Assembly (NCBI GenBank): GCA_005790565.1
Contig: SXUJ01000022.1
Coordinates: 1-40,063 of the forward strand
Direction of reading: 5' to 3'
DNA length: 40,063 bases
From: Planctomycetia bacterium
GTDB lineage: Bacteria > Planctomycetota > Phycisphaerae > Phycisphaerales > SM1A02
Shown: positions 1 to 294 of the stretch, piece by piece
Position numbering within the stretch: position 1 is the stretch's first letter
How the letters are laid out: each line of letters begins with the position of its first letter
Position numbers and translations under genes: made by a program
Notes under the pieces: generated by a model
What the model was told of the DNA's origin: nothing
The model's input: only the letters and a program-made list of their open reading frames with translations
Databases searched by the model: none

Positions 1-46
1 AAGCCAGAGTGACTTTTTTGAGTAATGACTGATAAAATCATGTTTC

Positions 47-120: not shown

Positions 121-294
121 GGGGTCTGGAGCCGTGTATACGGAGAGACGTCGTTTTGCCTGTGCGACGATGATCCTCCAAACACAGTTCCGACCATCCT
201 GAAATGGGTCGGATGCATGCAGGAACTCCCCGTCCTGCAGTGCACGAATGAAAACAAGGACGGGATGCGATAGCCCTTGGCTATCGCTCTCCCC
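121..294 (+). ncRNA. Candidate structured RNA or structured 5' leader of the sigma factor gene
   Basis: Five consecutive hairpins: CCGT/ACGG (132-143), CGTCG/CGACG (149-169), CCGACC/GGTCGG (190-212), CCCGTCCT/AGGACGGG (229-264), GCGATAGCC/GGCTATCGC (267-287). GGGG (121-124) and CCCC (291-294) could close the fold. No known RNA family recognised. Confidence 0.4.

Follow-up and report, generated by a model that had tools for sequence, protein, structure and literature searches.

A conserved folded segment, probably an undescribed control element, upstream of an RpoS-like sigma factor gene in a genus of Phycisphaerales

Gene order and conserved signals between ndk and the sigma factor gene

The window, that is, the whole stretch of DNA that was analyzed, is a complete 40-kb contig (C171) from the 2.66 Mb genome of a freshwater planctomycete, assembled in 177 contigs. 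It begins with the end of the housekeeping gene ndk and runs through a long intergenic region into a sigma factor gene, which is followed on its 3' side by a CoA-transferase gene. The intergenic region was compared in four sequences of one genus: the window genome (G000) and the only three same-genus genomes used, G001 (locus L006), G002 (L007) and G003 (L008), which are MAGs from public collections labelled Phycisphaerales, Planctomycetota or Planctomycetia. Fourfold-degenerate sites of two downstream genes, 40-46% identical between any pair of the genus and thus near saturation, served as neutral reference. The following features flank the folded segment:

1-11, + strand: last codons of ndk with the stop codon (TGA, 9-11); with the ndk protein of L008 as query, a match lies ahead of the sigma gene in almost every locus of the family
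26-40, + strand: conserved block GACTGATAAAATCA of putative function, including the extended -10-like word TGATAAAAT (30-38); pairwise identity 80-100% (fourfold sites: 40-46%)
47-80, + strand: intrinsic terminator of ndk, hairpin plus T7; many compensatory changes in four species, alifold z -19 relative to shuffled columns
99-110, + strand: conserved block AGTCCGnATAAC, recognized by identity and spacing; may form the 5' strand of a closing stem, GUCC 100-103 pairing with GGAC 258-261
500-535, + strand: conserved block TTGGAACTTTnnCCGCGnnnCTGCGGAAnTAC, apparent in the conservation profile 40-70 nt before the ATG; possible separate promoter of the sigma gene
572-1780, + strand: sigma-70 family sigma factor, 402 amino acids, RpoS-like, with regions 2 and 4 (Pfam)

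Contig C23 of this assembly ends with the remainder of ndk (L005), and this end overlaps window positions 1-36 with a few mismatches. The overlap places the break in the assembly within the intergenic region between ndk and the sigma gene, with strain variation as the probable cause. Nearly all fetched loci of this bacterial family show ndk followed by a long gap and the sigma gene; in loci of the same order from outside the family, ndk was absent upstream of the sigma gene.

The best NCBIfam and PDB matches of the sigma factor were RpoS, with a score below the family cut-off: the RpoS equivalog TIGR02394 was the best model, with 119.7 bits against the required 378.7. Because the score is so far below the cut-off, the protein is called RpoS-like only. 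Homologues were present in all 61 relatives searched (61/61), and no relative of the protein was detected in the viral contigs searched. The first-pass annotation of this DNA had placed the sigma start 278 nt after position 294, which agrees with the ATG at 572; it had also called the gene divergent, which, if orientation was meant, is wrong, as the gene lies on the same strand.

The intrinsic terminator that had been noticed upstream of the folded segment proved to be real and structurally conserved (47-80). Among the words conserved in all four species, TGATAAAAT had the best -10 score, and weaker candidates were found at 96-110. In all four species TGATAAAAT is situated between the stop codon and the terminator of ndk, an odd spot for a promoter; a promoter at 30-38 would begin the RNA just ahead of the terminator hairpin. 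A convincing promoter at a fitting place was not found, the best conserved -10-like word being upstream of the terminator.

Conserved sequence and structure in the intergenic region

The segment 121-294 had been described from the letters as a row of five perfect inverted repeats, with a GGGG/CCCC pair that could close the whole fold. Perfect arms are present at 149-153/165-169 (5 bp), 189-195/207-213 (7 bp), 218-224/233-239 (7 bp), 229-236/257-264 (8 bp) and 267-275/279-287 (9 bp). None of 500 dinucleotide shuffles matched the number of arms of at least 7 bp, and the segment folds with a z of about -4.5 to -5 (4-5 standard deviations better than shuffles), whereas none of 80 control segments taken across the window reached -4. 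The arms cannot, however, coexist as five consecutive hairpins, because 229-236/257-264 and 218-224/233-239 share positions 233-236. Comparison of the four species gave the following features:

126-190, + strand: long conserved hairpin P1-P3, consisting of GUGU 134-137/ACAC 182-185, GGAG 142-145/CUCC 176-179 and an apical stem 147-175, with a conserved internal loop AUAY
189-213, + strand: variable hairpin TCCGACC/GGTCGGA; about 40 nt extra in the loop in G003, different or shorter hairpins in the other species
214-244, + strand: covarying hairpin P4, UGCA plus UGCAGGA pairing with UCCUGCA plus a G bulge plus UGCA
250-266, + strand: GAAAAC-AA-GGAC-GGG, moderately conserved; possible 3' side of the closing stem (weak)
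267-287, + strand: 9-bp perfect hairpin GCGATAGCC/GGCTATCGC; kept with a G-U pair in G003, not kept as a hairpin in G001 and G002

At the sequence level, the blocks 26-40, 97-110 and 131-158 are 79-100% identical, whereas in between, several stretches come close to neutral identity. The spacing is exact in all four species: CTGATAAAATC is followed after 70 bp by AGTCCGnATAAC, and this after 35 bp by GTGTATAYGGA.

When each species was folded alone, the 126-190 region formed the same hairpin in 4/4 (GGAG/CUCC or equivalents), with z values from -2.4 to -5.1, and the RNAalifold energy was reached by 2 of 200 column shuffles. Three of its pairs changed on both sides, a number that with four sequences does not by itself exceed that of shuffles. 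For P4 the comparison was more telling. In an arm alignment fitted by hand, and therefore biased toward pairing, 41 of 43 cells pair and seven of the 11 pairs show double-sided change, a count equalled in 0-1 of 500 shuffles; on the unedited MAFFT alignment the region had an alifold z of -4.85 (0/200 shuffles). P4 thus shows the base-pair covariation looked for in a structured RNA. It forms in all four species from short segments, with the bulge on the 3' side; when longer intervals were folded, P4 was not the minimum-energy choice in G002, and those intervals were not unusually stable. The whole domain (88-300) had an alifold z of -3.1, and no conserved structure was detected at 300-345 (35/200 shuffles).

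Several of the hairpins originally proposed did not survive this comparison. The first one, CCGT/ACGG (132-143), is broken in one relative, and in all four species GUGU 134-137 pairs with ACAC 182-185 instead. The 8-bp stem 229-236/257-264 is not conserved, and neither is the 9-bp stem as a structure (267-287; 76 of 200 shuffles attained its alifold energy). The GGGG/CCCC closure is missing from the RNAalifold consensus fold, which proposes a closing stem 93-103/258-266 that includes GUCC 100-103/GGAC 258-261. As no single-species minimum-energy fold contains the pairing 100-103/258-261, we regard it as a possible but weak candidate. The folded element is therefore largely real, with a kept architecture that differs from five hairpins and a closure: selection maintains the long hairpin 126-190, the hairpin 214-244 and the exactly spaced blocks upstream to 99-110 and 26-40.

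Could such a pattern be chance structure in neutral, G+C-rich intergenic sequence with inverted repeats? The loss of the 9-bp and 8-bp stems, which are among the most striking repeats, is in line with this explanation, as are the unremarkable z values of the whole region in two of the four species (-1.6 and -2.4). Conservation far above that of fourfold sites, a core hairpin common to 4/4 and the covariation of P4 already largely refute it, and we consider it the least probable of the explanations discussed here.

Coding content was rejected. No frame is conserved as coding, in agreement with the first reading: in the relatives, in-frame stops and indels interrupt a 121-aa frame of the minus strand, and the only plus frame tested (309-449) has no counterpart there. 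By eye, the frames of a short upstream ORF after GGAG 142-145 differ in every species. AGUUCC, in the 185-190 region, could pair with a GGAAC ahead of the ATG; judged by eye as well, this pairing is seen in two species and broken in G001, and it was rejected.

Known RNA families and related elements

The suspicion that the element matches no familiar RNA family was borne out. With Rfam 15 no match above the gathering score was obtained in the whole window, and at E <= 10 the interval 1-620 gave only three weak matches, all on the ndk terminator region and none overlapping 121-294. Each of the four genus genomes has one copy of the element, which always lies downstream of the ndk terminator and ahead of the sigma ATG, at the same position directly upstream of the same gene. 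An nhmmer search over about 40 ndk-sigma intergenic regions recovered the four genus members only. With a covariance model of 126-195, applied to 42 loci and 101 genomes, the matches outside the genus stayed at chance level, the best of them having E 0.001 per genome, uncorrected for about 100 genomes. As far as can be seen from the collections searched, the element thus appears genus-specific, which suggests a local invention or a fast-evolving element and not a widespread class.

6S RNA (RF00013) deserved consideration, being structured, about 180 nt long, tied to sigma-factor biology and detected in some genomes of this family and order. The element fails its model: no 6S match was obtained in G000-G003, while relatives and controls match. 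In the family, 6S RNA sits elsewhere; the 6S-like matches in L061, L064 and L065 have a HIT-family gene and a transporter-like gene as neighbours, so that in none of these three loci is 6S RNA next to ndk or the sigma gene. The genus of the window gave no match; it may have lost its 6S RNA, or the RNA may have diverged too far to be recognized. A search of the literature on planctomycete RNA motifs yielded only the Rhodopirellula-1 motif, a candidate cis-regulatory RNA of Planctomycetes and Proteobacteria (Weinberg et al. 2010, PMC2864571). It resembles the element in being a candidate cis-regulatory RNA reported for Planctomycetes; it is listed without an Rfam accession, and a match in taxon and gene context would be conjecture.

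Many other family members have, in the ndk-sigma gap, a Fur/PerR-like palindrome close to TTAGAATnATTCTAA, located 116 (L021), 280 (L033), 222 (L038), 236 (L039), 223 (L040), 272 (L041) or 90 (L042) bases after the ndk stop. In those species the sequence suggests that metal or peroxide controls the orthologous sigma gene; the window's genus gave no comparable match. The palindromes bear on an explanation at the DNA level, according to which the exactly spaced AT-rich blocks would be a promoter and regulator sites, and the hairpins secondary. The exact 70 and 35 bp distances with variable sequence between them and a GTATAC palindrome are also consistent with such a control region. The compensatory changes in 214-244 and the shared 126-190 fold are, in contrast, signatures of RNA, and the blocks fit sigma-70 hexamers poorly, which makes this explanation unlikely in our opinion.

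Conservation and covariation are thus both present in the relatives, and the proposal of a structured RNA, whether small RNA or cis-acting leader, stands: the element is a real, selected, structured RNA absent from Rfam. Since the folded segment is kept in four species, with paired bases changing together, it is probably an undescribed control segment in front of the sigma message.

The region between the element and the sigma start codon

Downstream of the element, conservation is at the neutral level from 416 to 498 and rises sharply at 500-535. This block contains GGAACTT and an inverted repeat CCGC/GCGG; it has an ECF -35-like sequence as well as the GG-N10-GC spacing of sigma-54 promoters, and rpoN (sigma-54) is present in all four genomes. 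From its sequence, 500-535 is possibly an ECF-type or a sigma-54-type promoter. Genome-wide counts of the GGAACTT block were not consistently above those of a reversed-pattern control, and its role as a regulon promoter was therefore rejected.

Terminator scans and lists of T-runs revealed no intrinsic terminator from the element to the sigma ATG in any of the four species. The scan also missed the ndk terminator because of its long loop, thus the T-run lists are the firmer evidence. With no terminator in this interval, the simplest reading is that the element belongs to a long 5' leader and controls the sigma message in cis.

The promoter-like block allows a second, less probable reading, in which the element would be an independent small RNA, some 150-200 nt long, encoded after the ndk terminator and ahead of a sigma promoter of its own at 500-535; its target would be the sigma gene or lie in trans. 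A structured conserved domain, then a neutral stretch (416-498), then a promoter-like block just before the ATG, with sigma-54 at hand in every genome, is an arrangement compatible with this idea. Yet no 3' intrinsic terminator ends such an RNA in any of the four species, though the genus uses one for ndk; no conserved hairpin marks a 3' boundary; and the element always adjoins the sigma gene. With the drop in conservation at 416-498 and the rise at 500-535 taken into account, the leader was given an even chance, and the separate small RNA was kept as a doubtful, though serious, competitor.

Proposed function

The reading we prefer, with about equal weight for and against it, is that a genus-specific structured domain of roughly 150-170 nt lies in the long 5' leader of the mRNA of an RpoS-like alternative sigma factor. 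Counted in its favour were blocks above the fourfold level, exact spacing, the 126-190 fold and a single-copy locus (each 4/4), the covariation of P4, the missing terminator before the ATG where ndk has a clear one, and the family-wide long ndk-sigma gap. Counted against it were the lack of a convincing promoter, the neutral 416-498 stretch followed by the conserved 500-535 block, the small sample (n = 4), the weak closing stem and the restriction to one genus.

In the leader model, transcription would start upstream of about 130, either from the AT-rich conserved stretch 93-120 or from the extended -10 word (30-38), in which case the polymerase would have to read through the terminator hairpin, and the transcript would continue into the sigma ORF. 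The folded domain would then work in cis, through a protein, a small RNA or a ligand bound at the internal loop of 126-190 (approximately GUAUAYGGA-RGAC), and such binding would set translation or elongation of the sigma message. A bolder form of the proposal would see in the compact two-hairpin domain with its conserved internal loop a new ligand- or protein-sensing RNA class of Phycisphaerales, in which the ndk terminator hairpin, located just after the conserved extended -10, would double as an attenuator of the sigma gene and couple sigma synthesis to a metabolite or stress signal; we hold this to be a long shot.

In enterobacteria, rpoS has a long folded 5' leader that is controlled by DsrA, RprA and other small RNAs. 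The element resembles this leader in that both are long, folded and placed immediately ahead of a sigma gene of the stress type, with cis control here a proposal. The two differ in that no sequence relation was found between them and that the sigma factor studied here is below the RpoS family cut-off; control by small RNAs of the DsrA/RprA type is a feature of rpoS, whereas for the element a transcript, a small-RNA partner or a role of Hfq would be conjecture. To our knowledge, few cases of gene control by RNA are documented in Phycisphaerae. A conserved RNA ahead of a sigma gene that has homologues in all relatives searched offers a small target (about 170 nt) for the study of RpoS-like sigma switching.
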